Below, piece by piece: positions 10,475 through 38,884 of a DNA stretch of 41,565 nucleotides (the stretch's first letter is position 1; each line of letters begins with the position of its first letter). Origin of the DNA: a virus; the IMG/VR virus record IMGVR_UViG_3300045975_000079, positions 1 to 41,565 of that record; one strand, written 5' to 3'. The notes under the pieces are model-generated. The model did no database searches. It was not told where the DNA came from and was given only the letters and a program-made list of their open reading frames with translations. Position numbers and translations under genes: made by a program.

Positions 10475-10983
10475 AGACGACTCAACAAGACATTACGTTG
10501 GCCGCGTTCGAAGCACTGCTAGCGAAACACGGCGAACGCATTAGCCCGCGCGCGTTGCTTGACGAAGCGCGCGACTTCAATAGCCCGTTTCACGATTTCT
10601 TCAATTGGAACGACGACGAAGCCGCCGAGCAATACCGCTTGATTCAAGCCGGCCAACTCTTGCGGCGGTGGAAGGGCTCGGTTATCCGCATCGATAACTC
10701 GGCAAAGCTCGTGAGCGTGCAAAGCGTGCGCCGCGTGCAAAGCCCGCTCGGGCAGCGCGCACGAGGGGGCACGAGTTATGAGGCAATCGAAAGCATCATG
10801 GCCGACCCTGCCAAGCGCGCCGACATGGTGGCCACGGTGCTTCGCGAATTGAGTGCCTACCGAAAACGATACGCGCAAATCGAAGCGCTCGCCGACGTGT
10901 GGCGCGCGATCGATGAAGCGAACGAAGCGAACGCGCCAGCGGAACACGCCGCAGCGCATGCGCAACCATCCGCCAATGTGTGA
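10471..10983 (+). CDS. Hypothetical protein, 170 residues
   Basis: GTG 10471 overlaps the preceding stop (GTGA) and has GGGAAGGAAA upstream. N-terminal part resembles a small phage family with 'isPraLldEAr...SPlHdfFnWdDd.AAe.yR...A..Li' (here ISPRALLDEARDFNSPFHDF and FNWNDDEAAEQYRL). C-terminal helical segment (LRELSAYRKRYAQIEALADV). Function unknown; the operon context is recombination. It is the last gene before the repeat tract. Confidence 0.78.
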   Translation: MKTTQQDITLAAFEALLAKHGERISPRALLDEARDFNSPFHDFFNWNDDEAAEQYRLIQAGQLLRRWKGSVIRIDNSAKLVSVQSVRRVQSPLGQRARGGTSYEAIESIMADPAKRADMVATVLRELSAYRKRYAQIEALADVWRAIDEANEANAPAEHAAAHAQPSANV

Positions 10984-11690
10984 ACCGACTTTCTCGGCTG
11001 CGCTAGGCGGGCGGAGCACCGCCCGGCGGGGCCATGAACGGCGGGGCGGGGCACGGCGCGGCATGGCGGGCATCGCATGTTGAGGCGTGGCCAAGCGCTG
11101 TTGGGTCGGGCAAGGCTCGGCACGGCGGGCGGTGCGTGGTTCGGTAGAGTGGAGCGACGCGGGGCATGGCATCACATGGCGGGCAGGGCACGCCCCGGCC
11201 TCGCTCGGTCTGGCGCGTCGTGGCAACTCTGGGCCCGGCGCCGTGGGGCACGGTATGGCATGGCAGGCGCGGCACGGCGTGGTTGGGCCGGGCAAAGCTC
11301 GGCTGGGCAAGGCATGGCAGGCGCGGCACGGCGTGGTTGGGTCGGGCAGAGCCACGATGGGTCAGGCATGGCAGGCGAAGCGTGGTTGGGTCGGGATGGG
11401 TCGGGCATGGCGGGCGCGGCGCGGCGTGGCCAAGCGCCACGCGGTTTCGCCAAGCGCGGCGCCGCGGGGCGTGGCGGGGCGCAACAGTGCACAGCGGGCG
11501 CCGTCAGGTCAGGCTCGGCTGGGCAAGGCAAGGCAGGTGCAGCGTGGCCCGGCCTGCATAGGCGGTGCCATGCGGTGTGGGGTTGGGTCGGGCGAAGCAT
11601 GGCAGGCATGGCGGGGACCGGAGTGGCTCCGCCGGGCGGGGTTTGGCAAGGCAGGCACGGTGGTCGGGCGTGGTAGTGCGTGACGCCGCA
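10984..11690. repeat. GC-skewed degenerate tandem repeat tract, no gene
   Basis: About 700 bases made of variants of GGCATGGCAGG, GGCGTGGTTGGGTCGGG and GGCAAGG on the plus strand. A 31-base unit occurs exactly at 11257-11287 and 11311-11341 (54-base period), with partial copies at 11365-11395 and 11404-11430, and looser ones elsewhere. The G-rich strand is always the plus strand. All frames on both strands stay open only because the words contain no stops; none has gene-like composition. Possible origin-associated, G-quadruplex/R-loop-forming or structural RNA region. Confidence 0.8.
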
Positions 11691-11704
11691 TGGCATCAAC
11701 TCTT

Positions 11705-11711
11705 GGAAAGG
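11705..11711 (+). promoter_or_regulatory. Ribosome binding site that decides the Bet start
   Basis: GGAAAGG lies eight bases before GTG 11720, whereas the upstream in-frame ATG 11690 lies at the end of the repeat tract without a Shine-Dalgarno. The GTG is therefore preferred. Confidence 0.7.
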
Positions 11712-11719
11712 CACGCAAC

Positions 11720-12616
11720 GTGAATACCGAAGTTATCGAACGCCCCGCGCCGGCAGCGCGCCCCGTTTCTCTTGTCGCCAAGATGGCGGCACGTTTCAAC
11801 GTCGAGCCCGGCAAGCTCGTTGCGACGCTGAAAGCAACATGCTTTAAGACCGAACGCCCGGTGTCCGACGAACAACTAATGGCGTTGCTCGTGGTGGCGG
11901 ACCAATACAACCTAAACCCGTTCACGCGCGAACTCTTCGCGTTTCTCGACGCCAAGAGCGGCGGCATTGTCCCCGTCGTGTCGGTGGACGGGTGGTCGCG
12001 CATCGTCAACGAGCACCCGCAGTGCGACGGCTTCGAAGAGCGCATGGCCGATGACGGCTCGTGGGCAGAATGCACCATCTATCGCAAGGACCGCTCGCAT
12101 CATTTGACGCATCGCGAATGGCGCAGCGAATGCCAGCGCAACACCGCACCGTGGAACCAAAGCCCGCGGCGCATGCTCGGGCATCGGGCGTTCATTCAAA
12201 CGGCCCGCAAGACGTTCGGCTTTGGTTTCATGGACGAAGACGAAGCGGCGCGCGTTATCCACATGGGCAAAGCCGACGAAGTGACGGCGGACGCCGCCGC
12301 GCGCGCGGCCGGCTTGCGCAACGCCATCGCTGGCGGGCCGCCACCCACGCCCGAGCCGCCCGAGCCCATGCAAGAGCCGTTGACGCCACCGCCGCCACAC
12401 AAGCCGCCGTCGCGAGCGGAAGCCGAACCGCCCGGCGACCCCTTCGACCCCGAAGTGCCAGACCCCGCCGAGCTTGTCGCTGGCATTCAACGAGCAACGA
12501 GCGTCGAAGGGGCGCAACTCTTCGTCGATCAAGCGCGCGGGTTGGCCTACGACGAGCGCGCGCTAGTAGAAGCGGCATTCGCGGCAAAGTGGGTGCCCCC
12601 CGGGGTTGTCAAATGA
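11720..12616 (+). CDS. bet: Bet/RecT single-strand annealing protein
   Basis: 298 residues from GTG 11720. The N-terminal two thirds fit the Bet family: DEQLMALLVVADQYNLNPFT, RELFAFLDAKSGGIVPVVSV, DGWSRIVNEHP, then ECTIYRKDRSHHLTHREWRS and MLGHRAFIQTARKTFGFG. This core coats ssDNA and pairs complementary strands. A Pro-rich linker (residues about 205-245) leads to a short C-terminal helical part. It works with the exonuclease three genes upstream; the repeat tract separates the two. Confidence 0.93.
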   Translation: MNTEVIERPAPAARPVSLVAKMAARFNVEPGKLVATLKATCFKTERPVSDEQLMALLVVADQYNLNPFTRELFAFLDAKSGGIVPVVSVDGWSRIVNEHPQCDGFEERMADDGSWAECTIYRKDRSHHLTHREWRSECQRNTAPWNQSPRRMLGHRAFIQTARKTFGFGFMDEDEAARVIHMGKADEVTADAAARAAGLRNAIAGGPPPTPEPPEPMQEPLTPPPPHKPPSRAEAEPPGDPFDPEVPDPAELVAGIQRATSVEGAQLFVDQARGLAYDERALVEAAFAAKWVPPGVVK

Positions 12617-22551: not shown

Positions 22552-22740
22552 CTACGGCGGCGGCGAAAGCGCGGTGCACATAAGCACCAAGAGCACGCCG
22601 AACGCCACCACGACTATCGTAGCCATGAGCCGCACCGCGCGTTGCGGGCGGTCCAGCCATTTCGCGCGCTCGTCGGGGAATGCTTCCCGCGTGCTGCGCG
22701 GAAACTTGCGGGTTGTCGGTGTGTCGTCGTCTTCGTCCAT
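22552..22740 (-). CDS. Small membrane protein at the end of the structural operon, 62 residues
   Basis: ATG 22740 overlaps the tailspike stop (TGATG). Highly charged N-terminus (DEDDDTPTTRKFPRSTREAF), then one membrane segment (LMATIVVVAFGVLLVLMCTA) and a short Pro tail. The last gene of the late operon with N-in/C-out topology is where a holin or antiholin often lies, but no endolysin is beside it. Holin function is only a guess. Confidence 0.65.
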   Translation of the reverse strand: MDEDDDTPTTRKFPRSTREAFPDERAKWLDRPQRAVRLMATIVVVAFGVLLVLMCTALSPPP

Positions 22741-23789
22741 CACGCGAGCACGCCAACCGGGCCGCTTTCGTACGGCGTCACTATCGCATCGTCGCAACGA
22801 TAGTCGGGGTCGGCGTCCACTAGGTTCGCGTCAATCAGCATGCGGTCGGCATATTCGGTGCGTGCGTCAATGCCGCCGTAGTAGTCCGAAAGGATCACGT
22901 TGCGCGCCAGCGTGACGCCAACCACCGGGTAACCCTCGCGCCCGAAGATCAGTGCCGCGTAATGCCCCTTGTCGGGGTTGCCGCAATCGCGAATCAAGTT
23001 GTGCCGCACGAGCACGTTGGCCACGCCGAAAGTGTTGTAAGACGATTCGCTCGCGATGTAGAGCCCGGCGGCGTTGTGGTTGCCAATCAGCGAATTGTTT
23101 TCGTAGAGCACTCGTTCGCCGCCGACGACGGACATTGCGCGCCCGCCCCATTGATTCGTGATGATGTTGCGGCGCGCGGTTATGTCGTGGCACGGGCCGG
23201 CATCGGGGTTGCCTTCGTCGATGTAGGACACCACCGCCACGCCATCGTCGCCGCAGTGGTCGGCGTGGTTGTCTTCGATGGTGACGTAAGCGGCGCCGTC
23301 CGTCACATGGATGGAATCGGCCAACGTCTCACGGATGCGATTGCCGATGATGCGCCCGTGACTCGCTCCCAAGCCGACGTGCAAGCCCGCGCCGATGCCT
23401 TGATCGATCAGATTGCGCGACACGAGAAAATCGGTAGCGGCATCGCGGACCACTATGCGCTTGCCTTCGTAGTTCGGCCACCGCATTTCGGGCTCAAGCA
23501 TTGGCCCCGTGAAGCGCAACCGGGTAACCACGCTGCCGGCGCCGATCACGTACAGTGCCGCCGCTTGCGGGTTGAGCGCATACAACACGGACGCATCCCC
23601 TTCGCCGCGCAGCGTGCAAGCGTCGCACGTCAACACCCCGTCATAAGCGCACGTGAGCCCTGCGGGGATCAACACCGGCAAGCGTTCGTCGCGGCCGGCG
23701 TCTAGCGCGCGCTGCAATCCCTCGTGATCGTCGCTGCACCCGTCACCGACGACGCCGAAGTAACGCACGTCAAGCGGAAGCGCTTTCAT
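22740..23789 (-). CDS. Right-handed beta-helix tailspike (pectate-lyase-like)
   Basis: 349 residues from ATG 23789 (overlaps the upstream stop). Repeated short strands with Asn/Gly turns: DFLVSRNLIDQGIGAGLHVG, RIIGNRIRETLADSIHVTDG, VTIEDNHADHCGDDGVAVVS, ITARRNIITNQWGGRAMSVV, NVLVRHNLIRDCGNPDKGHY are parallel beta-helix rungs. The N-terminus (RYFGVVGDGCSDDHEGLQRA) matches the 'D.t' start of pectate-lyase-like tailspikes. It probably binds and may cut a host surface polysaccharide. No catalytic residues can be assigned by eye. Confidence 0.9.
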   Translation of the reverse strand: MKALPLDVRYFGVVGDGCSDDHEGLQRALDAGRDERLPVLIPAGLTCAYDGVLTCDACTLRGEGDASVLYALNPQAAALYVIGAGSVVTRLRFTGPMLEPEMRWPNYEGKRIVVRDAATDFLVSRNLIDQGIGAGLHVGLGASHGRIIGNRIRETLADSIHVTDGAAYVTIEDNHADHCGDDGVAVVSYIDEGNPDAGPCHDITARRNIITNQWGGRAMSVVGGERVLYENNSLIGNHNAAGLYIASESSYNTFGVANVLVRHNLIRDCGNPDKGHYAALIFGREGYPVVGVTLARNVILSDYYGGIDARTEYADRMLIDANLVDADPDYRCDDAIVTPYESGPVGVLA

Positions 23790-24910
23790 ACCGGGCGAAG
23801 CGGCGACGTGCGCGGCGCTCCCACTCGACGGGTGAAGCCGCCCGATTGCTGGCGCGCGAGCGCGGCGATTTCCTCGGGCGTTTCCTTCACGATAACTTCG
23901 ATCAAGTTTTCTTGCCGCTCGGGCTCGGGCGCCGTGCCCTCTTGATAAATCAACACGATTAGCCGCCCCTGCGTCACTTGCGCGCCGCTGGCTAGGCATA
24001 GCGTCGCAAATTCCATGTAGGTCGTTTGATCGATGGGCGGCGCCGTCACTTGATAGCGCGCCCATCGCGCCGAATCGGCTTTGTCTTGGATGTAGATTTC
24101 TGAGCCCGCGTCTAGCGTCGTCATTAGGTTTTTGGTGTCCACCGAATCGGCGGTGGTGTAGTTGATCCACACGAGCGACGCGAGCGCTTGCGCAGCGTTG
24201 TTCAGACGCATTCGGCCACCGCCCGGCCCGGCGGTGACTTGCGCGTCTAGCGTCCATTCGTAGTTGATAAGCGGCACGTCGCCGACGCGCGGAACGAGCT
24301 TGCGCCGGGGAATGCTGCGCACTTGCTGCGTTACCGCCATCGTCGTCGGGTCAACGATTTGGCCGCGAAGCCGCGTGCCGGTGTCGCTCACGTTGCGCCC
24401 CATGCTCAAGCCGGCGTCGAGGTTCACGTAAACGAGTTCGCCGTATTCAGGATCAGGCGTGACACGGTGGAGCGGTACGTACATCATGGCGAACCCCTCA
24501 ACAATGGCGGGCGTCAGCACGTCCACCGGCGGTTGATATTCGGCGGCAACGCGAAGCGTCCACCAGTTAGCGCGGTGAAATTGCATCAACGACGTTTGGA
24601 TATCGCCCATGCAACGCACCGCGATCGGCATGGATTCGACGCCGGCTTGCGATGCTTCGATGCCGGCCAACGTCAGATTGAACCAGTCATAACCGAACTC
24701 GTTGAGCCAAGAAAAGAGCGGGTGCAATTGCGCGTTGCTCACCCGCCACGCCAAAGCGATTTCGGTTGGCATGCGCGCATGCAAGCGCCGCTGGCGCGAG
24801 TTGCCGGCTTCGAACGGCGTGCGAATCACTGCACTTGCGCTCGTGGCTTGGTAGCCGTCGATCCGCGAGACACACGGCAAGTCGTCGGGAAAGTCCACGT
24901 CTACGGGCAT
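23786..24910 (-). CDS. Tail protein (distal tail/minor tail-like), 374 residues
   Basis: The pattern RTPFEAGNSRQRRLHARMPT, EIALAWRVSNAQLHPLFSWL, NEFGYDWFNLTLAG, PIAVRCMGDIQTSLMQFHRA, NWWTLRVAAEYQPP is seen in minor tail proteins downstream of J-like genes. The second half has strands and a short Glu-rich helix (ENLIEVIVKETPEEIAALAR). No enzymatic motif. Lies between fibre and tailspike, so it may join the tailspike to the baseplate. Confidence 0.75.
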   Translation of the reverse strand: MPVDVDFPDDLPCVSRIDGYQATSASAVIRTPFEAGNSRQRRLHARMPTEIALAWRVSNAQLHPLFSWLNEFGYDWFNLTLAGIEASQAGVESMPIAVRCMGDIQTSLMQFHRANWWTLRVAAEYQPPVDVLTPAIVEGFAMMYVPLHRVTPDPEYGELVYVNLDAGLSMGRNVSDTGTRLRGQIVDPTTMAVTQQVRSIPRRKLVPRVGDVPLINYEWTLDAQVTAGPGGGRMRLNNAAQALASLVWINYTTADSVDTKNLMTTLDAGSEIYIQDKADSARWARYQVTAPPIDQTTYMEFATLCLASGAQVTQGRLIVLIYQEGTAPEPERQENLIEVIVKETPEEIAALARQQSGGFTRRVGAPRTSPLRPV

Positions 24911-24925: not shown

Positions 24926-25405
24926 TCAATAGCATTCGTTCCAAGCGTGCAGCGTTGGCGATCCGCCGGTGGTGTTGAGTCGGTAAAACCAGTCTTCGGG
25001 AATGATGCCATTCACATACGCTTCATTGGTGCCCGTCTCAGGGGACCAAAAGCCGCCGACAGTCATCCAACCCGTCGAGCCATCCGCGCTCACTTCCAAT
25101 TGCCACGTGTTGTTGTTCCCGGTAAACGAGCCCTGCACCATCGCGGCCATTGGTGCGCCGTGCGTGTTTTCGTAGACGGTCCCTAGCGAGCGCGAAGCGG
25201 TGTTGTTATGCCACGTCGGGAATTGCTCGGTTTGTTGATACGGCAACGCCAAGAAAGTGTCGGTGCCGTTGCCTATCTTGAGCTTGGCCGAGCCATCGGC
25301 TAGCCGCTCGATAGCGATTTCGCCGTCACCGATTACCAAGTCATCAACCGCCCAATCGGCAGTGGCGCCGATCAATTGACGTTGCCTTGCAAGAATGTCA
25401 GACAT
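24926..25405 (-). CDS. Tail fibre-like protein, 159 residues
   Basis: N-terminus MSDILARQRQLIGATADWAV, IGDGEIAIERLADGSAKLKI, GNGTDTFLALPYQQ is the common 'G.GEI.ie...g.lKiGdG.t.f..LpY' motif of phage fibres that attach to the tail tip. The C-terminal half is strand-rich (TWQLEVSADGSTGWMTVGGF), probably a receptor-facing trimer. Starts 13 bases after the J-like gene. Confidence 0.85.
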   Translation of the reverse strand: MSDILARQRQLIGATADWAVDDLVIGDGEIAIERLADGSAKLKIGNGTDTFLALPYQQTEQFPTWHNNTASRSLGTVYENTHGAPMAAMVQGSFTGNNNTWQLEVSADGSTGWMTVGGFWSPETGTNEAYVNGIIPEDWFYRLNTTGGSPTLHAWNECY

Positions 25406-25417
25406 AGCGGCCCCTCT

Positions 25418-28400
25418 TCAAATGTCCGCGCTCGGATCGGACGGCGTGCCCGCTAGCACTTCGTCCGCAAACGTGCTCGACGGAATACCGGCTATCACTT
25501 CGTCGGGCGCCGATGGGTCTGCCGGCGTGCCGGCGACTATCCACGTGCCAACGTCGCCCGGCAACGTGCCGCCGCCTTGATGATCGAGCGCGCCGATATA
25601 AACGTCGGGGTTGTATGTGACGCCTTCGACGCGCACTTGCGTTTGCGTTTGCGGCGTCACCGTGACGCACACCCAATCACGCACTTCGCTTCCCATCGTG
25701 CCGAACGCGATGCGCGTTGGCTCTTGGTGGTCGCCCTTCCCGAACAGCGGGAACGGGTCAGGCTCCAACAGCAAGACGATATGGTCAGCGGCGCCGCGCT
25801 CGCATAGCACCGACTCGCTAACGCCGTTCACTTCGCTCGACAACAAGACGGCGTGCGGCTCGTCTTCCGCGTCCCAATCCAAGCCACGATCGAGGTAGAG
25901 CGTCGAAGTCGCCGGCCCTATTACCGGGTCTTCAAACGCTTCCGTTTCCGGGGTGTAGTCATCCGTATAGGCGGCTTCGGGAATCACGCTGATTTCGTCG
26001 AGCCATCCGGGGAATGCGCCGCCGCCACTCACCGACCCGGCGCTATCACCGGTCAAGAGTGCGAGCGGCGCTTGCGGCGGATAGAAATTCGCGGTGTAGA
26101 CGGGCTCGCCGATCGTAAGCCGCGGGTTGTCTATCTGGCCACTAAACGACATGGTGATACTTGCATTCGCACTGTCGGTGTAGGAACCACCGAGCCGAAG
26201 GCCGAAGTCCGCGCGCGTGGTGTCGAGCCCAATGAATGTCGATTGCGCGCCGGTGGTGACAACGAACGAGCCAGCGCATAGCGCGCCGTCCACATAGATT
26301 TTTGGGATGCCGTTTTCGATCACGAACGCCACGTGTTGCCACATGGACGATACGGAAATGTCTTGCTCGGTTTGCCATGTTGACCAATAGGTGCCGCCGG
26401 TCACGTTTTTGCTAACCGTGATGGCGAAGCGCCCATTCTCGGTGTAGCACCACCACCCGCCGCAACCGTTGCCCGTGCTCGTCGGATAAGCGTGCGTCGC
26501 AAGAATGCGCTTCGCAAACGGGTTTTGCCACACGAAGCATTCAAAGCAAAAGTCGGTGCCCGTGCCGATCACGCCTAGGTCATAGCTGGCGCTTGCCGGC
26601 GCGGATATCGTGTCGCCCGTGCCATCAAAGCTCAACGCTTGCGAAGCGAAGAAAGCATTGTTCCGCGTCATCATTGCTTCGCCGGTGACGGTGAGCGCGG
26701 CGCGCAGCGGCGATAGGTCCGTGAATGACTGTTGCCCGTGATAGCCGGCCGGGCGCATCAACAGTTTGCAAGTCGCGTCGGACAAGGGCCGCGGAGTTTC
26801 GGCGGATGCGTACCAAGGGAACGGGCGCGAAGGCGGCGTAAACGTGGCGGTGTAGCGGCACACCCCTTCGGTAATCCGCACGTTGTCGATATAGCCGCGG
26901 AACCCCTCCGATCCACCGTGGCCACCGATGTTGTAAGCCGGCGCTCCCGCTGGCGATACGCTCGACGTGGTGTTAGCGACGGACACACCGTCGAGCCAAA
27001 TGTCGATGCGGCCGGAGCCGTCGCGCGTAACCGCGACGTGATACCACGTCGTGTTGTTCGTCGTGATTGTGGCAACCGTCGTTAACGTGAGAAGCGCCGG
27101 CGAGCCCGCGGCGTTGCGCAGTAGAAAACTCAGCGTGCCGCCTAGATTCGTCTTCAACGCGATTACCGCGTTTGCCGATCCGCTTTGCGACGAGATGATG
27201 CGGCCGGCGGAATTGGTGTCGCACCTTATGTGCGCTTCCCATGTGAACGGACCCGAGCCGACGTTTTGCGCGCGCGTGGTGCCGCAGTAAGACCCGGCGC
27301 TAGAGCATTGCAAAGCCCCTAGGCTATTGAACTTCTTTTGCGTCGTTTGCTGCGATGCGCTCGACCCGGTGCAAACCGAAGGGGTCGCCGCGTAGTCTTG
27401 ACAACGCGCGCCCGATTGCGCATCGAAGACAAGCAGTAGCGCCACGCTGGCGAAGTCGGCATCAATGAACGGCGCGGTATAAACCGGGTCGTCGCTAACG
27501 TACGTGAAGCCCGTTGGCACGGTGTAAAGCGCCGACGTGCACAAATCAATCTTGCAGACACCGCCAGCGCCGGGGCTGAACGGCGTGCACGCCGGATACC
27601 AATTGCGATCGGTGATCGGTATGTGCGTTGATGACTGCGGCGTGCCGCCCGGCGGCGCAGCGGTTAGCCACGTGCCATTCTTGCCGAGCCACAACGAACC
27701 CAACGCCGCGTCAAACGCGAACATCAACCGATCGCCGGTGGTGTATGTGGCGACCGATGCGACCGACGCATTGTTGTAAGTCACTTGCCCATTGCTCGAC
27801 CATGCGACGGTGTAGTAACCGCCGCCGACGCCGGCGCCGTTGGAGCCCGAGCCGCCATTGGTGGTCATGCCGATGTGCACGAGGTTGCCACGGCTCACGC
27901 ATATGACTTCCCAATATGCCTTGCCCGTTGGGAGGCACGCCTTCGTCGCCCGCGTGAATTGCGGATGCGCCGTGCCGCTCGCATCGCCATATTGCACGCG
28001 CAACCGGTCGGCGGACATAAGCCCCGGAATGCTCGTTGTCGCCGCGTCCCATGTGAGCGCAACGATTGGCGGTGCGTCGCTCGGCGCCGCGATGCGCAGC
28101 GGCCACCCTGCGCGCGTCGTGTCGAGCCCTATGAACGACGATTGCGAGCCGTCACCGCCGACCCATTCGCCGGCGCGCTCGGTGCCATCAACGAAGATGC
28201 GCGGCACGCCGGCTTCAATCACGAACGCGAGCGCGTACCACGAGCCCGCCGCCACCACCGCCGCCGTGGTCTGCCACGTGGCCCAGTAAGCGGCGGCCGG
28301 CGCGTTGTGCGAAACCGAAATGGCGAGCTTGCCGCCGACTTCATAGATGACATAACCGCCCATCGGTGCGCCGGGGCCGCTGCCGGTGATCGTGGGCGGA

Positions 28401-31400
28401 TTCGGAAACGGGCCGCTCGCGGTGTAATCGGTGGTATAGAGCGCGCGCTTCGTGAAGCGCACTTCGTCTATGCGGCCGACCCATCCGTTATTGAAAACGG
28501 TACGGTTGCCAATGTACCAATTAGCCGGCGTGCTGGCAGTGCCGGCGCCCGGCGTCACCGCGCTTTCATGCGTCAATGCGCCGTTGACGTAGAGCCGATG
28601 CTTCGTGATGTTGATTGTGTTGCCCTTGGGCACCACGATCGCCACGGCGTACCACGTATTGAGCGCCGGTGTCCACGTGGTGATTACGTCACCGCCGCCG
28701 CGCAAGCCATAGGTAAGCCGGTTCGCCGAATCCACGGCGACGTGGAATTGCATGCTCGACACTGAATCCGTTTGAAAGACATAGCGCAACGCGGATGCGC
28801 CGCCTTCGATGCGGATTGAAAACTCGATCGTTGTTTCTTCGGTGGACGCGAACAAGCCGGCTAGGCTCGCGGTGTAGGCAATGCGCGCATTGTTGCCGGC
28901 GGCGCCACTCCAATACGCCGAGCCCGCGCCATACGCCGGCGTGGTGCCGCTGATTGCAACCGCGCCGGTGGACGTGCCGGCGATGCCGGATGGCGCGTCG
29001 GCGTCGTCGTGCGAATCGTAGTGCGCCAGAAAGACGACGGAGCTTGGCACCGCATCCACCGCGGACACCGGCACACCCTGCGCGCGGGAGAAGAGCACGC
29101 GCGGCACCGCCGCAATGGAAGTCCACCGCGCACGAAGCCGCCAAGTGTGGTTCGTGCTCGCGTCAATCGCGCCCAGGTCGTAACGGTCATCGTCGGTCGT
29201 CTCGATGTAGTCACCGATCGCGCCGAACACCATGGAAGAGCCGCCGAAGACGGATTGCGCCGTGTCAATCTGCGCGCCACCGACAACCGAAACGGGCTCG
29301 TCATATAGCGACGTGTCTACGATCGACGTAGAGCCGTCCGAGCCGTCGCCGTGCACTAGAAGCGTGGTTGCATCGGGCGGCCCGGCCGCCGCGCTTATCT
29401 CGTCAACGATGCCGACTTGCCCCCAGTGCGGCATGGCGTGTTGCATGGCGAACCGATCGCCCGGCAAGAGCAAGAGCCCCTCTAGCTCGGTATCAAACGT
29501 GATCGTTTTGCGCTGCAAGCGCTTGCGATTCCACAAGAGCCGCGCGTATTGGTTCGCCGTTGTCTCGCTCGTGCACCCGAAGAGCGACACCCCGTCCACG
29601 TCGGTTTCGTCGTCGGGATACAGCACGAAGGCGGCATCAAACGATTGTGGCTCGCGGTATTCCACGCGCACGCCGGGCGATGCGCCTACCTTGTCGAACT
29701 CGTAGGCGACGACAAGGCCACTCGTGTTCGCTTCGGTGAACATCGCCACGCGCGACGGTTTCACGGCGTCGGTTGTCACCGACAAGAGCCCGCCGAGCGG
29801 AAGCGGCGATGCGGCGACGACTTGCAGCGCCATGGCCAACGCTTCGAACACGGTGGATTTCTGAGCGAACACCGCATTAAAGCCACTGTGCGCGGCCCAT
29901 GTGTCGCGCAGCGTGGTAAGCGCCGGCAAGTCAATTTCGCTCGCCACTGGCGGCGGACGCGCGGCGCCATAGTCGGCCATGACGATATCGGCGAACGCAT
30001 CGGCGGGGTTCACCGTGGGCACAAGCTCGGCGGTTGGGTCGGCGAGTGGGCGCAACAGGCGCCGCACGCGAAAGCGAATGCGCGACGTGGCCGCCGATGC
30101 AATGCCGTTCGTGGCACGGATGCGCACCGCTACTAGCGTCGTGTTGCCATAGACGCGCCACGTCGTCGGCTTGCGGACAATCCTTAGCTTCAAGCCGAAC
30201 CACGTGCACCGATCCGACGTGGTGGCTAGGCCAGTAGACGCGGTGTCGCGGTGACACCGGACCATGTAGCGGCCGGCGGCAAGCGTCTTGCTTCGCGTGA
30301 ACCGCTGCGCCGTGGTTGATGCGGCGGTGAACGTCCACGATTGCGAAACCACCGAACCATATGGCACGCCTTGATCGGTGATCGTTTGAAACTCGGCGGT
30401 GACGGTGACGGATGCGGACGCAAGTTCGCCGGTGCCCGAGTCGGTGTTATAGAGCCCGGCCGCGAACACAAAGTCAAGCATTGCCAAGTCACCGCGCGCG
30501 CCGGGCTTGCACGCATCAAACCATCCGATCCACGGCCCTTCAATCGTCGTTGGCGTGGACGGCGGAATGACCGAGCCCGGCGGATAGGGCGGCCCGGTGT
30601 AGGCGGTGGCGACGACGATATTCCACGTGACGACGGGCACCATATCAACGCCAACGCTGGCGTAATCGCCCCAGTAGTACGTGGAGCCGATGGCTTCGCT
30701 TGGGTGCGATTGGAGCCACGCCAAATCTTGTTCGGTGTAGCCGCCCGGCGGCGGGTTGTCGGCGACCAAGCCATAGTCTTGTGAGACACAACGCCAATAG
30801 ATAGCGGGCGGATCGGAGCCCGCCGTTTCCGGCAATAGCTCTTGGTCTCCGACTTCGGGCGAAGTCACCACGTTTTCATAGATGCCGTGCGCGTCTTCTA
30901 TGCGCCCCTCTTGCATCAAGTGGTCGGCCGGGCCGAATTTGTAGTAATCGACAACGCCAACCGGAAGATTCGCGATCGTCGATTCACCGACCATCATTTC
31001 GTCGATCAGATAATCGCCCTGCCCCAACACGAGGATTTGCGCTAAATATTGGTCGTTGGCGTCGTCGAAGTAGGTGTATGGCTGCGACCCGAAGTCCGGC
31101 ACTTGCACAAATTCGCCATAGCCAACGGGGATCGGCTCACCGAGCCGCGCCGCATTCTGCGAACCGGTGATGGAATAGACGGGCGAGCTTGCCGCTTGAT
31201 CCACCAGTGCGGCCGGTTTCTTCGGCCGAAAGATGGCGGAAACGACGGTCGAGATGGCGAGCGCGATTAGCGCTTGGATAACGTAGACGCCGACTTGCGC
31301 CCACGCCGGAATCATCACCAGCGCCACATGGTCGCCGGCCACGAGTTCGCGCGCGTCGTCGCGCGGCACGCGCTCGCCGTTCACGTTGACGACTAGCACG

Positions 31401-31534
31401 CCGTCGCGTTGCGCCACCGGCCAATCGGCAATGACTTGCGCCAGCGATTGCGGGCGCACACGCTCTATCGTCCGCTCGGTTGGGCGCAGCGGGTTCGCAA
31501 CCTTAACGACGGTAACGCGCTTGGCGAACATCAT
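25418..31534 (-). CDS. J-like tail-tip hub with an inserted LamG/SPRY array, 2,038 residues
   Basis: ATG 31534 overlaps the NlpC/P60 stop. Residues 1-75 are a ubiquitin-like tail I-type domain (RVTVVKVANPLRPTE, GVLVVNVNGERVPRDD), 81-102 a membrane-like helix, then the J/TipJ core (VYSITGSQNAARLGEPIPVG and following, to about 718). From about 720 to 1875 there is an array of concanavalin A-like LamG domains (for example SSMVFGAIGDYIETTDDDRY; NWYIGNRTVFNNGWVGRIDE) and one SPRY-like domain (GKAYWEVICVSRGNLVHIGM, about 1200-1330). J-type sequence resumes (ATSTLYLDRGLDWDAEDEPH) and ends with a Pro/Asp-rich tail. Hub plus glycan-binding array implies host recognition. Confidence 0.9.
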   Translation of the reverse strand: MMFAKRVTVVKVANPLRPTERTIERVRPQSLAQVIADWPVAQRDGVLVVNVNGERVPRDDARELVAGDHVALVMIPAWAQVGVYVIQALIALAISTVVSAIFRPKKPAALVDQAASSPVYSITGSQNAARLGEPIPVGYGEFVQVPDFGSQPYTYFDDANDQYLAQILVLGQGDYLIDEMMVGESTIANLPVGVVDYYKFGPADHLMQEGRIEDAHGIYENVVTSPEVGDQELLPETAGSDPPAIYWRCVSQDYGLVADNPPPGGYTEQDLAWLQSHPSEAIGSTYYWGDYASVGVDMVPVVTWNIVVATAYTGPPYPPGSVIPPSTPTTIEGPWIGWFDACKPGARGDLAMLDFVFAAGLYNTDSGTGELASASVTVTAEFQTITDQGVPYGSVVSQSWTFTAASTTAQRFTRSKTLAAGRYMVRCHRDTASTGLATTSDRCTWFGLKLRIVRKPTTWRVYGNTTLVAVRIRATNGIASAATSRIRFRVRRLLRPLADPTAELVPTVNPADAFADIVMADYGAARPPPVASEIDLPALTTLRDTWAAHSGFNAVFAQKSTVFEALAMALQVVAASPLPLGGLLSVTTDAVKPSRVAMFTEANTSGLVVAYEFDKVGASPGVRVEYREPQSFDAAFVLYPDDETDVDGVSLFGCTSETTANQYARLLWNRKRLQRKTITFDTELEGLLLLPGDRFAMQHAMPHWGQVGIVDEISAAAGPPDATTLLVHGDGSDGSTSIVDTSLYDEPVSVVGGAQIDTAQSVFGGSSMVFGAIGDYIETTDDDRYDLGAIDASTNHTWRLRARWTSIAAVPRVLFSRAQGVPVSAVDAVPSSVVFLAHYDSHDDADAPSGIAGTSTGAVAISGTTPAYGAGSAYWSGAAGNNARIAYTASLAGLFASTEETTIEFSIRIEGGASALRYVFQTDSVSSMQFHVAVDSANRLTYGLRGGGDVITTWTPALNTWYAVAIVVPKGNTINITKHRLYVNGALTHESAVTPGAGTASTPANWYIGNRTVFNNGWVGRIDEVRFTKRALYTTDYTASGPFPNPPTITGSGPGAPMGGYVIYEVGGKLAISVSHNAPAAAYWATWQTTAAVVAAGSWYALAFVIEAGVPRIFVDGTERAGEWVGGDGSQSSFIGLDTTRAGWPLRIAAPSDAPPIVALTWDAATTSIPGLMSADRLRVQYGDASGTAHPQFTRATKACLPTGKAYWEVICVSRGNLVHIGMTTNGGSGSNGAGVGGGYYTVAWSSNGQVTYNNASVASVATYTTGDRLMFAFDAALGSLWLGKNGTWLTAAPPGGTPQSSTHIPITDRNWYPACTPFSPGAGGVCKIDLCTSALYTVPTGFTYVSDDPVYTAPFIDADFASVALLLVFDAQSGARCQDYAATPSVCTGSSASQQTTQKKFNSLGALQCSSAGSYCGTTRAQNVGSGPFTWEAHIRCDTNSAGRIISSQSGSANAVIALKTNLGGTLSFLLRNAAGSPALLTLTTVATITTNNTTWYHVAVTRDGSGRIDIWLDGVSVANTTSSVSPAGAPAYNIGGHGGSEGFRGYIDNVRITEGVCRYTATFTPPSRPFPWYASAETPRPLSDATCKLLMRPAGYHGQQSFTDLSPLRAALTVTGEAMMTRNNAFFASQALSFDGTGDTISAPASASYDLGVIGTGTDFCFECFVWQNPFAKRILATHAYPTSTGNGCGGWWCYTENGRFAITVSKNVTGGTYWSTWQTEQDISVSSMWQHVAFVIENGIPKIYVDGALCAGSFVVTTGAQSTFIGLDTTRADFGLRLGGSYTDSANASITMSFSGQIDNPRLTIGEPVYTANFYPPQAPLALLTGDSAGSVSGGGAFPGWLDEISVIPEAAYTDDYTPETEAFEDPVIGPATSTLYLDRGLDWDAEDEPHAVLLSSEVNGVSESVLCERGAADHIVLLLEPDPFPLFGKGDHQEPTRIAFGTMGSEVRDWVCVTVTPQTQTQVRVEGVTYNPDVYIGALDHQGGGTLPGDVGTWIVAGTPADPSAPDEVIAGIPSSTFADEVLAGTPSDPSADI

Positions 31535-32436: not shown

Positions 32437-34473
32437 TCAAGCCCGCGCGCGTCCTAGCGCATACGTTGATTCAAGCGCACCAGAGAAGAGGGAACCACCG
32501 GTGCGCACGTCTTGCGCGAGCGCGCGCCGCGTGCGATCGATGATTACGTCAATGCGCGCGCCGTCTTCGCTCGTCTCGACGCTGACTTGCGAACCGTTGT
32601 TGTTGTGCACGTGGACTTGCATTTGATTCGATGCCCCTTGCTGCACGCTCGGCGTGGGCAGTGGCACCAAGCCGGACACCGGCAACGGCATCGGCGGCGC
32701 GACGCCAGCGGCCATCGGCATCGCGCCGACGCCGGTGCGCGTTTGCGGCGTGGCGACACTCGCCGGCGGGGCGGCGGCGGCGAACGGCGCGGCGATGCCG
32801 CCGCCACCCATAAACGGTTGCGAAGAGCCGCCACCGAACATGCCCGAAAGCGCTTCGATAATGTATTTTTTCGCCCACAGTTGAAGCAGGTTCGCAATGA
32901 TCGATTGAATAGCGCGCTTGAAAAGCTCCGACGCATCGGCGGCGCCGCGCCCCAAGTTGTCGAAGAATGCTTGCGCCCCCTCGGTCAGCACGTCCATTTC
33001 CGTGCGTTGCTTCTCAAGCGCTTTCGTGTTTTCCTCGGTGGCTTTCATGGCTTCGAGTTGCGCGTTCGCGAAGGCGCGCTCTTTGTCGGTGCCGAGCACC
33101 GCCATACGCGCTAGCTCTTCGCGCGTCAAAATTTCTTGTTTGCGTTTCTTGTCGAATTCGTCGGCTTGCTTGGCCAAGTCCATTTGCACTTCTAGCCGCT
33201 CTTTGTCGGCTTGATTCAATCCGGCGGTGACGCTGAGGTTTGTACGCTGCAATTCGGATGCGCTCACCGCGGCTTCCGCCGTCTTGCGGATCGCGTCTTG
33301 CATGCGCTCTTGCGCTTCGATAAATTGCCGCGCCTCTTTCGCGCGCGCTTCGCCGATCGATTCGTGGGACTTCGTAATCAAGTCGTCAACAAGTTTTTTC
33401 CTCGCCGCCGCTGCGGCTTCGGCGTCGGCTTGTGCCTTCGCTTTGGCGATCGCTTCGTCAGCGAAGCGCGCCGCTTGCCGCGCAAACTTGGCTTTGTCGG
33501 CGGCTTGCTCGCGCTCGACGCGCGCTTGCTCGCGCAAGACTTCTATTTGCGCGTTAATGCTATTCAAGTTGAGTTGCGCTAGGACATTAAAGCCGCCTAG
33601 CGTCTTGGTCTGCACTTCGTCGCGGCGCTTCAACAAGACTTGCAAGCGCTCTTCGGCGGACCCGAGTTCGCCGCTCGCGCTTTGCATGATGGTTTGCACC
33701 GTGCCGGCCCAGAAACCTAGTTGCTTGATGTTTTCGACGAGCGCGCCCGTCAGATTGACAAGCTCGGGCAGGATCGTTGACGCGATTGCGCGGCCGGTGC
33801 CCGCCGCTGCGGTTTTGATTTTTTCCATGTTGTCGTTGAACTCTTCGGCGCGCTTCGCGTCTTCGGCGGTGAACGTCCCTTGCAGCAAGCCGAGTTCACG
33901 ACGCATCGCCGCGATGCCGGCGGCGCCGGAGTTCATTAGCGGGATCAACTCTTTACCCGCCTTGCCGAACACGTCGAGCGCAAGCGCCGTTTTTAACGGG
34001 CCATCGCTCATGCGCGAAAACCCATCGATCAACTTTTCTAGCGCTTGGTCGCTCGTGTCTTTGGCGGTGACGCCGAACGCGCGCAACGCTTGCGTTGTCT
34101 TGTTGATTTCGCCGGCGTCAATGTCTTGGATGCCTTGCGCGACTTTGCCAACCGCCGTCGCGAACGTGCCGGCGTCAACGCCACTGAGCCGCAACGCGAA
34201 TTGCCACTCTTGCAGGGATTCAACCGAGATGCCGAGCCGTTGCGATGCCTTTACGGCTTCGTCCATGGCGTCGATTACGCCTTGAATGCCCGAGATGATT
34301 TCGCGCGCCGTGAACGCGAGCCCGATACCGCCGGCAAAGTTGCGAATGGCCTTCCCCGCCTTCGCCATTTTTTCTTCGACACCCTGCGTGGAGTTCGCGA
34401 CCCGTTGTAGCTGGCGCACGGCTTCGCCGCCGTCCACCGTCAGTTTGTAGATGCGCTCTAACGTATCGGCCAT
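32437..34473 (-). CDS. Tape measure protein, 678 residues
   Basis: Long helical protein, Ala/Lys/Glu-rich coiled coils (LDVFGKAGKELIPLMNSGAA, REQARVEREQAADKAKFARQ) with tape-measure motifs (IRNFAGGIGLAFTAREIISG, LRLSGVDAGTFATAVGKVAQ). A Gly/Pro-rich C-terminal segment (about 555-640) and a final LQMQVHVHNNNG-like region. Sets tail length; at roughly 0.15 nm per residue it suggests a tail near 100 nm, hence a siphovirus. Short for the class but complete. Confidence 0.93.
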   Translation of the reverse strand: MADTLERIYKLTVDGGEAVRQLQRVANSTQGVEEKMAKAGKAIRNFAGGIGLAFTAREIISGIQGVIDAMDEAVKASQRLGISVESLQEWQFALRLSGVDAGTFATAVGKVAQGIQDIDAGEINKTTQALRAFGVTAKDTSDQALEKLIDGFSRMSDGPLKTALALDVFGKAGKELIPLMNSGAAGIAAMRRELGLLQGTFTAEDAKRAEEFNDNMEKIKTAAAGTGRAIASTILPELVNLTGALVENIKQLGFWAGTVQTIMQSASGELGSAEERLQVLLKRRDEVQTKTLGGFNVLAQLNLNSINAQIEVLREQARVEREQAADKAKFARQAARFADEAIAKAKAQADAEAAAAARKKLVDDLITKSHESIGEARAKEARQFIEAQERMQDAIRKTAEAAVSASELQRTNLSVTAGLNQADKERLEVQMDLAKQADEFDKKRKQEILTREELARMAVLGTDKERAFANAQLEAMKATEENTKALEKQRTEMDVLTEGAQAFFDNLGRGAADASELFKRAIQSIIANLLQLWAKKYIIEALSGMFGGGSSQPFMGGGGIAAPFAAAAPPASVATPQTRTGVGAMPMAAGVAPPMPLPVSGLVPLPTPSVQQGASNQMQVHVHNNNGSQVSVETSEDGARIDVIIDRTRRALAQDVRTGGSLFSGALESTYALGRARA

Positions 34474-37782: not shown

Positions 37783-37958
37783 GGGTGTTCCCCCCGAAAC
37801 CATTCCGGCGGCGTGATCGTGAAGCCGGATTCACGTTCGCACCGCGCGCGCTCGGAGCGCGCATCTATGTCGCACTTCCGCGCGACATGGAGTGCGCACC
37901 CGGCGATCGCGAGCAAGACGGTGACGACGGCGACGAATGCGGCGGCTAGCACTTTCAC
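37779..37958 (-). CDS. Small lipoprotein, 59 residues
   Basis: GTG 37958 overlaps the preceding stop. N-terminal KVLAAAFVAVVTVLLAIAGC ends in a lipobox (IAG-C), followed by a short charged tail (ALHVARKCDIDARSERARCE, FTITPPEWF). Outer-membrane lipoprotein, possibly a Rz1-like or exclusion protein, but its place within head genes is unexpected. Confidence 0.65.
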   Translation of the reverse strand: MKVLAAAFVAVVTVLLAIAGCALHVARKCDIDARSERARCERESGFTITPPEWFRGEHP

Positions 37959-38884
37959 ACGGCTTTCTTTCGCACGAGCGCGAGCAAGCCCGGCGCGTGC
38001 TCGTTGATCCATTCCACCGCTTCGCGCGCGTGTGCATCGGCAGTGCGCGCAAGCTCCGCGACGGTTGACACGTGTTGTGCGGCGTCGGTGGCGTTCGCCG
38101 CGAGTTCGCGCAAGCCGCTGCGAATCGGCTTCAATTCGCGCGCCGCATCGCCGGCGGTGTAGCCGCGCGCCGCCACGAGCCACGAGCGCGCGCCATCGAA
38201 CATAAAGGTTCCGCCCTCGCGCATGTGCAAGTCGCCGGGCTCGGCGGGATCGCGCCCGCCGATGTTGCGAAGCCCGGCGGTGCCTATGCGCTTCCAGTGC
38301 GGCGAATCGCCGGGCTCGTCGGCGGTGTCGGCCACGGCTTCGTAAGTGCGGCCCATGAAATGCGAGACGCGGACGCCGGCGCGATAGACGCCGGCCAGCC
38401 ACGGATCGCACGGGGCGCCGGGGGCGCCGGGTTCGCCACGCTCGCCGCGTTCGCCGCGCGGCCCGCGCTCGCCCTTTTCCCCTTGCGCGCCGTTTTCGCC
38501 GGGGTCGCCGCGCAGGGTGCCGAGATGCTTTTCGACGACGTGAATTGCGATGGCGTCGGGATCGGGGCGCGGCGGGGTGGCCCGAAGTTCGGTGCCGTTG
38601 GCCAACGTCAAAACAAGCTCGGGGCCATCGGTGCGAAAGCCGGTGATAAGTCCGCGCGCGATGGCGTCGGCTTGCGCTCGCGCTTCGCCGGCGGCGCGCT
38701 CGTGCTCCGCGAGCCGCGCGCGGAGTTCCACCGCGCTGCATTCGACGGCGCGCAATTGCGCTAGCGTCGCCTCGCACCGCGCGAGCAAGTCGGCCGCGGT
38801 GGTGTCGAGCCGTCCGCGGAGCAGTGCGAAGCCATGTTCCATCGCGCGACCAAAGCCGTGCATTTCCGGGGTGCCGTTCGTCAT
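37955..38884 (-). CDS. Collagen-like protein with carbohydrate-binding-like domain, 309 residues
   Basis: ATG 38884 overlaps the portal stop. Residues about 25-80 are a coiled coil (LRGRLDTTAADLLARCEATL, EHERAAGEARAQADAI), 126-158 are 11 uninterrupted Gly-X-Y triplets (collagen-like), and 160-205 resemble a small carbohydrate-binding domain (WLAGVYRAGVRVSHFMGRTY, WKRIGTAGLRN). The shape predicts a trimeric fibre, probably a head fibre or decoration, because it follows the portal rather than the tail genes. Binding target unknown. Confidence 0.82.
   Translation of the reverse strand: MTNGTPEMHGFGRAMEHGFALLRGRLDTTAADLLARCEATLAQLRAVECSAVELRARLAEHERAAGEARAQADAIARGLITGFRTDGPELVLTLANGTELRATPPRPDPDAIAIHVVEKHLGTLRGDPGENGAQGEKGERGPRGERGERGEPGAPGAPCDPWLAGVYRAGVRVSHFMGRTYEAVADTADEPGDSPHWKRIGTAGLRNIGGRDPAEPGDLHMREGGTFMFDGARSWLVAARGYTAGDAARELKPIRSGLRELAANATDAAQHVSTVAELARTADAHAREAVEWINEHAPGLLALVRKKAV

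Follow-up and report, generated by a model that had tools for sequence, protein, structure and literature searches.

Predicted nesting of LamG and SPRY-like domains within the OB loop of a J-type phage tail hub

The tail hub protein encoded in the 41,565-nucleotide viral stretch analysed here (hereafter the window) contains an insert of 1164 residues, spanning residues ~714 to ~1876 of J. Judged from sequence comparison, this insert is nested: one outer LamG domain has been broken twice by other lectin-type domains, and the insert is not a tandem array. The best explanation of the whole, to which we give a probability of about two in three, is that a single LamG was gained in the OB loop of the hub, that later gains nested within it, and that the product would form lateral, glycan-binding adsorption arms. 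Functional insertions in siphophage hubs are already known, but nested lectins in the OB loop of a J-type hub look new; searches of open-access papers turned up no report of nested lectin insertions, or of LamG or SPRY domains in phage hubs.

The assignment of the carrier as a J-type hub rests on several lines of evidence. Two Pfam domains score over their cut-offs ahead of the insert, FNIII-A_GpJ at residues 353-446 and Phage-tail_3 at 644-705, and the protein matches the J-type tail families phrog_469 and phrog_31 as well as LamG families in PHROGs. The hub domains of gpJ are recognisable by sequence, with profile matches to Sf11 gp14 (E 1e-43) and lambda gpJ (E 1e-16). The gene comes after the tape measure gene (32437-34473), a DUF1833 gene and an NlpC/P60 gene, which is the usual neighbourhood of J. 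The protein ends ~50 residues past the hub and has none of the C-terminal FNIII domains, central fibre or receptor-binding domain of lambda, making it a short J-type hub; most of its relatives likewise do without this lambda-type part. A near-identity search against phages with the first 25 kb of the window as query returned no match, and two scans of bacterial genomes found no host or prophage. A protein with collagen-type repeats (E 4e-7) is encoded at 37955-38884, with the portal gene on one side and the tail genes on the other.

Aligned to nine J homologues from known phages, the J-type sequence halts at residue ~713 and picks up at ~1876-1878, close to the limits of ~718 and ~1875 that a sequence-only reading had proposed. 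The insert site falls exactly between WGQVGIVDEI and LYLDRGLDW, in a hairpin turn where the nine homologues have few residues. By profile alignment this loop maps to lambda residues ~499-503 (VLAV-NSQTR-TLTLDRE). These residues lie within the beta-sandwich 483-569, which is itself inserted in HDIV (PMC10721106) and is named the OB domain in PMC11101478, so the nesting would read HDIV > OB > LamG > LamG at one break, and SPRY + LamG + LamG at the other. Lambda gpJ, which has the same hub fold and domain order, is itself built by insertion within insertion, with HDII-ins2 within HDII-ins1 and both HDIII and OB within HDIV (PMC10721106, PMC11101478). It differs in having a 5-residue turn where the window has 1164 residues, and in binding its receptor at a C-terminus that follows FNIII and fibre domains, both of which are absent here.

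Pfam finds four Laminin_G_3 stretches in the insert (whole protein E 5e-40) and a SPRY stretch at residues 1206-1293 that is significant (E 1.8e-4) yet under the Pfam cut-off (22.0 of 26.3 bits). Together with the homologue alignment, these matches agree with the earlier suggestion that LamG and SPRY-like domains sit within J and not at its end, the SPRY match being below threshold. The paired motifs on which that reading relied are where it had placed them (YWATWQ at 28271-28288 and YWSTWQ at 26372-26389; FIGLDTTRA, preceded by S or T, at 28109-28138 and 26210-26239), and the two internal copies are 48% identical over 102 aa, well beyond chance. However, the first of these supposed copies covers just the central piece of a LamG that is itself interrupted. 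The complete LamG at 1584-1825 aligns through its first half with residues 717-795 (E 3e-8) and through its second with residues 1047-1148 (E 7e-31). A profile of the outer-type LamG, built from the unbroken copies in two related hubs (L022 and L021) and window domain E, meets the window, besides E itself, in three ordered pieces: profile 8-110 at residues 723-829, 106-202 at 1054-1150, and 213-245 at 1838-1869 (A, C and F in Table 1). Scored apart, these pieces give 120, 77 and 23 bits; joined, they give 230, and only then do they score as one domain. What had been described as an array is therefore better read as a nest of domains within domains. The first break encloses one complete LamG (B); the second, residues 1159-1825, holds the weak SPRY-like domain and two complete LamGs (D and E). 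A degenerate search for a conserved stretch common to the six LamG modules found none. Single LamG, tandem LamG and SPRY fragments were left out of the insert alignment because MAFFT stretched each of them over several domains.

Table 1. Positions in the window of the J-type hub gene, the parts of its insert and the tail genes downstream
Feature	Position	Strand	Basis
J-type tail hub gene, 2038 aa	25418..31534	-	Pfam, PHROGs, homologue alignment, gene order TMP-DUF1833-NlpC/P60-J
Hub N-terminal part, residues 1-713, ending with first strand of OB hairpin	29396..31534	-	Pfam, alignments
Outer LamG piece A (putative), residues 721-823, outer-LamG profile 8-110	29066..29374	-	Self-comparison, L022 alignment, profile
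Nested LamG B, residues 828-1046, within first break of outer LamG	28397..29053	-	Pfam, profile
Outer LamG piece C (putative), residues 1054-1150, profile 106-202; YWATWQ and SFIGLDTTRA	28085..28375	-	Motifs, self-comparison, profile
Nested SPRY-like domain, residues 1159-1344, opening second break	27503..28060	-	Pfam E 1.8e-4 under cut-off, phrog_10080, viral relatives
Nested LamG D, residues 1359-1575	26810..27460	-	Pfam, profile
Nested LamG E, residues 1584-1825, complete outer-LamG paralogue; YWSTWQ and TFIGLDTTRA	26060..26785	-	Motifs, self-comparison, profile, tree
Outer LamG piece F (putative), residues 1834-1872, profile 213-245, last strands	25919..26035	-	L022 alignment, profile
Hub C-terminal part, residues 1876-1986: OB hairpin strand 2 and remaining OB/HDIV	25577..25909	-	Alignments
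J C-terminal tail, ~15-aa repeats (IVAGTPADPSAPDEVIAGIPSS...AGTPSDPSADI), candidate docking peptide	25421..25561	-	Comparison with relatives
159-aa protein, fibre-type N-terminal adaptor domain (ARQRQLIGATADW...LVIGDGEIA), adjoining such tails in relatives	24926..25405	-	PHROGs, relatives
374-aa tail protein, phrog_384; homologue bears repeat tail in relatives	23786..24910	-	PHROGs, relatives
Beta-helix (pectate-lyase-like) tailspike-type protein, start inferred	22740..23789	-	Pfam, PHROGs

Relatives of the hub range from empty to heavily occupied loops. Scanning IMG/VR with the hub alignment gave 79 loci, and the loop could be measured in 60 distinct hubs with both flanks. It is at most 8 residues long in 48 of these and 9-25 residues in five (25 aa or fewer in 53/60), leaving seven hubs with more than 25 residues. 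Two of the seven (L058 and L069) are weak end matches, one (L096) has an unrelated insert, and four are of the LamG type, with loop contents of 250 aa (L022), 498 aa (L021), 710 aa (L064) and 1164 aa (the window, counted via the near-identical L005). The L022 loop, in a hub 53% identical to that of the window, is a single unbroken LamG that aligns in order to window pieces A, C and F, and an unguided MAFFT alignment splits it onto the same three pieces. The L064 loop is the same outer LamG, interrupted twice by other LamGs. Its second break falls where that of the window does, at profile position ~203, but its first lies at 133/134, as against ~108 in the window. Profile residues 108-133 thus join the first piece in L064 and the middle piece in the window, which argues for one domain broken at different places and not for decayed tandem copies; in sequence terms, the first breaks appear to be independent. 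In L021 (3288-4814), the LamG is flanked inside the loop by ~85 and ~170 residues that match no assigned domain, perhaps another interrupted one.

The possibility that A, C and F are what is left of three LamGs that stood apart in a linear tandem array, the copies having decayed, deserves consideration, since LamGs of other phage proteins do stand in tandem and piece F is short, at 23 bits. We regard it as very improbable. The three pieces follow one another along a single profile with hardly any overlap, an unbroken orthologue stands at the same place in L022, the displaced first break in L064 shifts residues from one piece to the other, and the joined window sequence groups with the joined L064 outer LamG (100/91). 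This split is absent from ~40 other LamG ORFs of phages, whose copies stand in tandem and are for the most part full-length. The tandem LamG proteins of cyanophages and other phages, which include baseplate and virion structural proteins, belong to the same Laminin_G_3 family, but their copies run head to tail, un-nested and outside J hubs.

The trees bear on how the nest was assembled. In a tree of 45 LamGs, the joined outer domains of the window and L064 are sisters, followed by L022 (100/99) and then by L021 together with window E (99/99), so that the outer LamGs and window E form one clade (99/99). Domains B and D and both nested LamGs of L064 group instead among LamGs of other phages, with weak inner support. 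The hub tree places the four occupied hubs, the window included, in one clade (100/100). On these sequence data, the simplest account is that the outer LamG was gained once in the clade of occupied hubs and that separate gains then followed inside it. Within this clade the hub tree and the outer LamG tree disagree slightly on branching order, a hint of exchange though not a proof.

The unrelated insert of ~180 residues in L096 (NLLRYSEQFDNAVYSKINITV..., 10759-11328) lies in the same OB loop of a distant J lineage with a long C-terminal extension, and suggests that the loop is a repeated landing site. From this insert and the independent first break in L064, we put forward a broader proposal, plausible but somewhat short of probable: that J-type hubs have in their OB hairpin a landing site, at which lectin modules accumulate by repeated insertion into the loops of earlier modules, giving branched adhesin trees and no linear fibres. 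The usual picture of tail-tip adhesins is of fibres growing at their ends. Here a single family presents an empty loop, one LamG, and LamGs within a LamG, which would offer a stepwise view of adhesin growth by insertion into its own loops and would identify a tolerant site in the lambda-type hub. It also carries a caution: automatic annotation reads such nested proteins as tandem repeats.

Structure prediction was informative for the simplest of the occupied hubs. An AF2 model of the L022 hub, built with 41 sequences, has a mean pLDDT of 81 and, by Foldseek and VIA-align, matches Sf11 gp14 (Z 28.2, 558 residues) and lambda gpJ (Z 19.9, 539 residues). For its residues 742-978 the matches are jelly rolls of the ConA-like type (Z 16-18, ~200 residues, ~3 A). 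The LamG portion beside the exit (943-981) is of low confidence. In L022, then, the model presents a discrete jelly roll with the hub continuing on both sides; the contrary case named in the sequence-only reading, a central region that continues the hub fold, does not hold for this model. Clostridial neurotoxin binding fragments, which are numerous among the jelly-roll matches, were set aside as sharing the ConA-like fold only, and no kinship or function was read from them. The AF2 model of the window insert, made with four aligned sequences, had a mean pLDDT of 31 and was discarded; the fold of the window insert thus rests on homology, and its domains presumably adopt the corresponding folded form.

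We propose the following scheme. The hub would consist of HDII-HDIII-HDIV, without FNIII or a central fibre behind it. The OB domain, a decoration of HDIV, probably acquired a LamG jelly roll a single time, in the loop of its first beta-hairpin, and modules gained later would have landed in loops of this LamG, one LamG at the first break and a SPRY-like domain and two LamGs at the second. Each J subunit may then bear a branched cluster of five beta-sandwich domains of lectin type, or about fifteen per J trimer. These clusters would project sideways from the tail tip and bind surface glycans in an initial, multivalent adsorption, and the contacts that come later would fall to separate tail proteins encoded downstream. 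The sideways projection, the glycan binding and the role in adsorption are inferred, partly by analogy: the insert is dispensable across the family and variable in size within one clade, its folds are of lectin type, and loop insertions in hub and Dit proteins are known.

LamG domains may also act in protein contacts or in stability, and not in glycan binding. The insert could accordingly be structural and non-adhesive, acting as a collar to stabilise the hub or to keep its neighbours among the tail proteins in place, for instance the 374-aa protein or the tailspike. Such a collar would suit a J that lacks the FNIII and fibre region that closes the lambda tip and whose gene is directly followed by tail protein genes; the L022 model shows fold only, and all six SNPs in the insert (see below) are synonymous. 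We nevertheless consider a collar unlikely, because close relatives with the same hub have no insert and yet keep the adaptor domain and a 374-aa protein homologue, and because insert sizes that differ between sister phages, from 250 to 1164 aa, are more in keeping with an adhesin than with a scaffold.

A close parallel is the 'evolved Tal' of streptococcal phages SW13 and TP-778L, in which domains are inserted in the siphophage tail-tip hub beside separate receptor-binding proteins. Those inserts project away from the trimer axis; the linker-borne insert holds lysins in an AF2 study and CBMs in an earlier HHpred account (PMC9437275, PMC7291167). More generally, loop domains of the hub and Dit of streptococcal and lactococcal phages project off axis, and for some of them binding to host saccharide has been demonstrated (PMC7291167, PMC9437275). 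The window hub, too, has an extra domain in a loop of a structural tail-tip protein that is absent from close relatives. However, the carrier of the evolved Tal is the gp27-like Tal of Gram-positive phages, whereas here it is a J-type hub, with the OB hairpin as the site and nested LamG and SPRY-like domains as the cargo. By analogy, the window hub may work like an evolved Tal, yet by descent of its carrier, which is not a gp27-like Tal or Dit, it would not be one. The 'evolved Dit' likewise has a module of carbohydrate-binding type in a loop of a tail-tip protein, where it adds adhesion; in the available excerpts of its descriptions, the CBMs number one or two and lie in galectin-domain loops of a six-copy Dit ring, and nesting of module in module is not reported (PMC6669499, PMC7291167). 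Among J-type and related hubs, Sf11 gp14 (the best sequence and fold match of the hub), Jersey gp32 and LSH1 also lack the receptor-recognition parts of lambda (PMC12724387, PMC13243795), but their OB loop is free of inserted LamG or SPRY domains, and Sf11 gp14 aligns there with a short turn.

SPRY-like domains were found at 13 loci in other viral contigs. A SPRY-like domain in a phage hub, which the earlier suggestion had called unusual, is therefore less odd than was supposed. Several of these domains (L101:3743-4342 and L102-L106) have a common WLGKNGTW motif and may represent a little-described viral SPRY-like group; that of L101, at 24.1 bits, is likewise just under the cut-off.

It had also been suggested that the insert diversifies receptor binding. 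An adhesive role is likely by analogy, but our data do not support rapid diversification. A diversity generator, which would switch receptor specificity rapidly through recombination among the internal copies or their editing by a retroelement, would be in keeping with the presence of internal copies, a RecT-type annealing protein encoded in the window, the slight disagreement of the outer LamG and hub trees, and the clustering of SNPs: six of the nine between the window and contig L005 fall in the insert (27350-29066; p 0.0075, small numbers). Yet all six of these are synonymous, the insert protein sequence is identical in a second contig, and the copies are only about half identical. Their identity by codon position is 63/65/46%, with third positions not conserved, which indicates that the copies are old and led us to reject recent gene conversion between them; signs of recombination among the copies were a check that the sequence-only reading had proposed. 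The 41,565-base record, possibly incomplete, has no RVT_1 match and hence no reverse transcriptase was found, on which basis a diversity-generating retroelement was rejected. We therefore consider a diversity generator highly unlikely. The annealing protein, of the RecT family (11690-12616, E 4e-19), might aid module exchange. Chimeric assembly was also ruled out, as two contigs from other samples agree with the window, one of them, from a second sample, at 99.94% over 14.7 kb.

Repeat tails like the short C-terminal one of J occur in relatives as well. Wherever the fibre-type N-terminal domain of the 159-aa protein occurs, the protein encoded just upstream usually ends in xAGTPxxPS repeats (~49/55 occurrences, near-identical contigs included). 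Most relatives have the repeats on a homologue of the 374-aa protein; the window and L064 have them on J. We infer that the repeat tail of J may be a docking peptide for the fibre.
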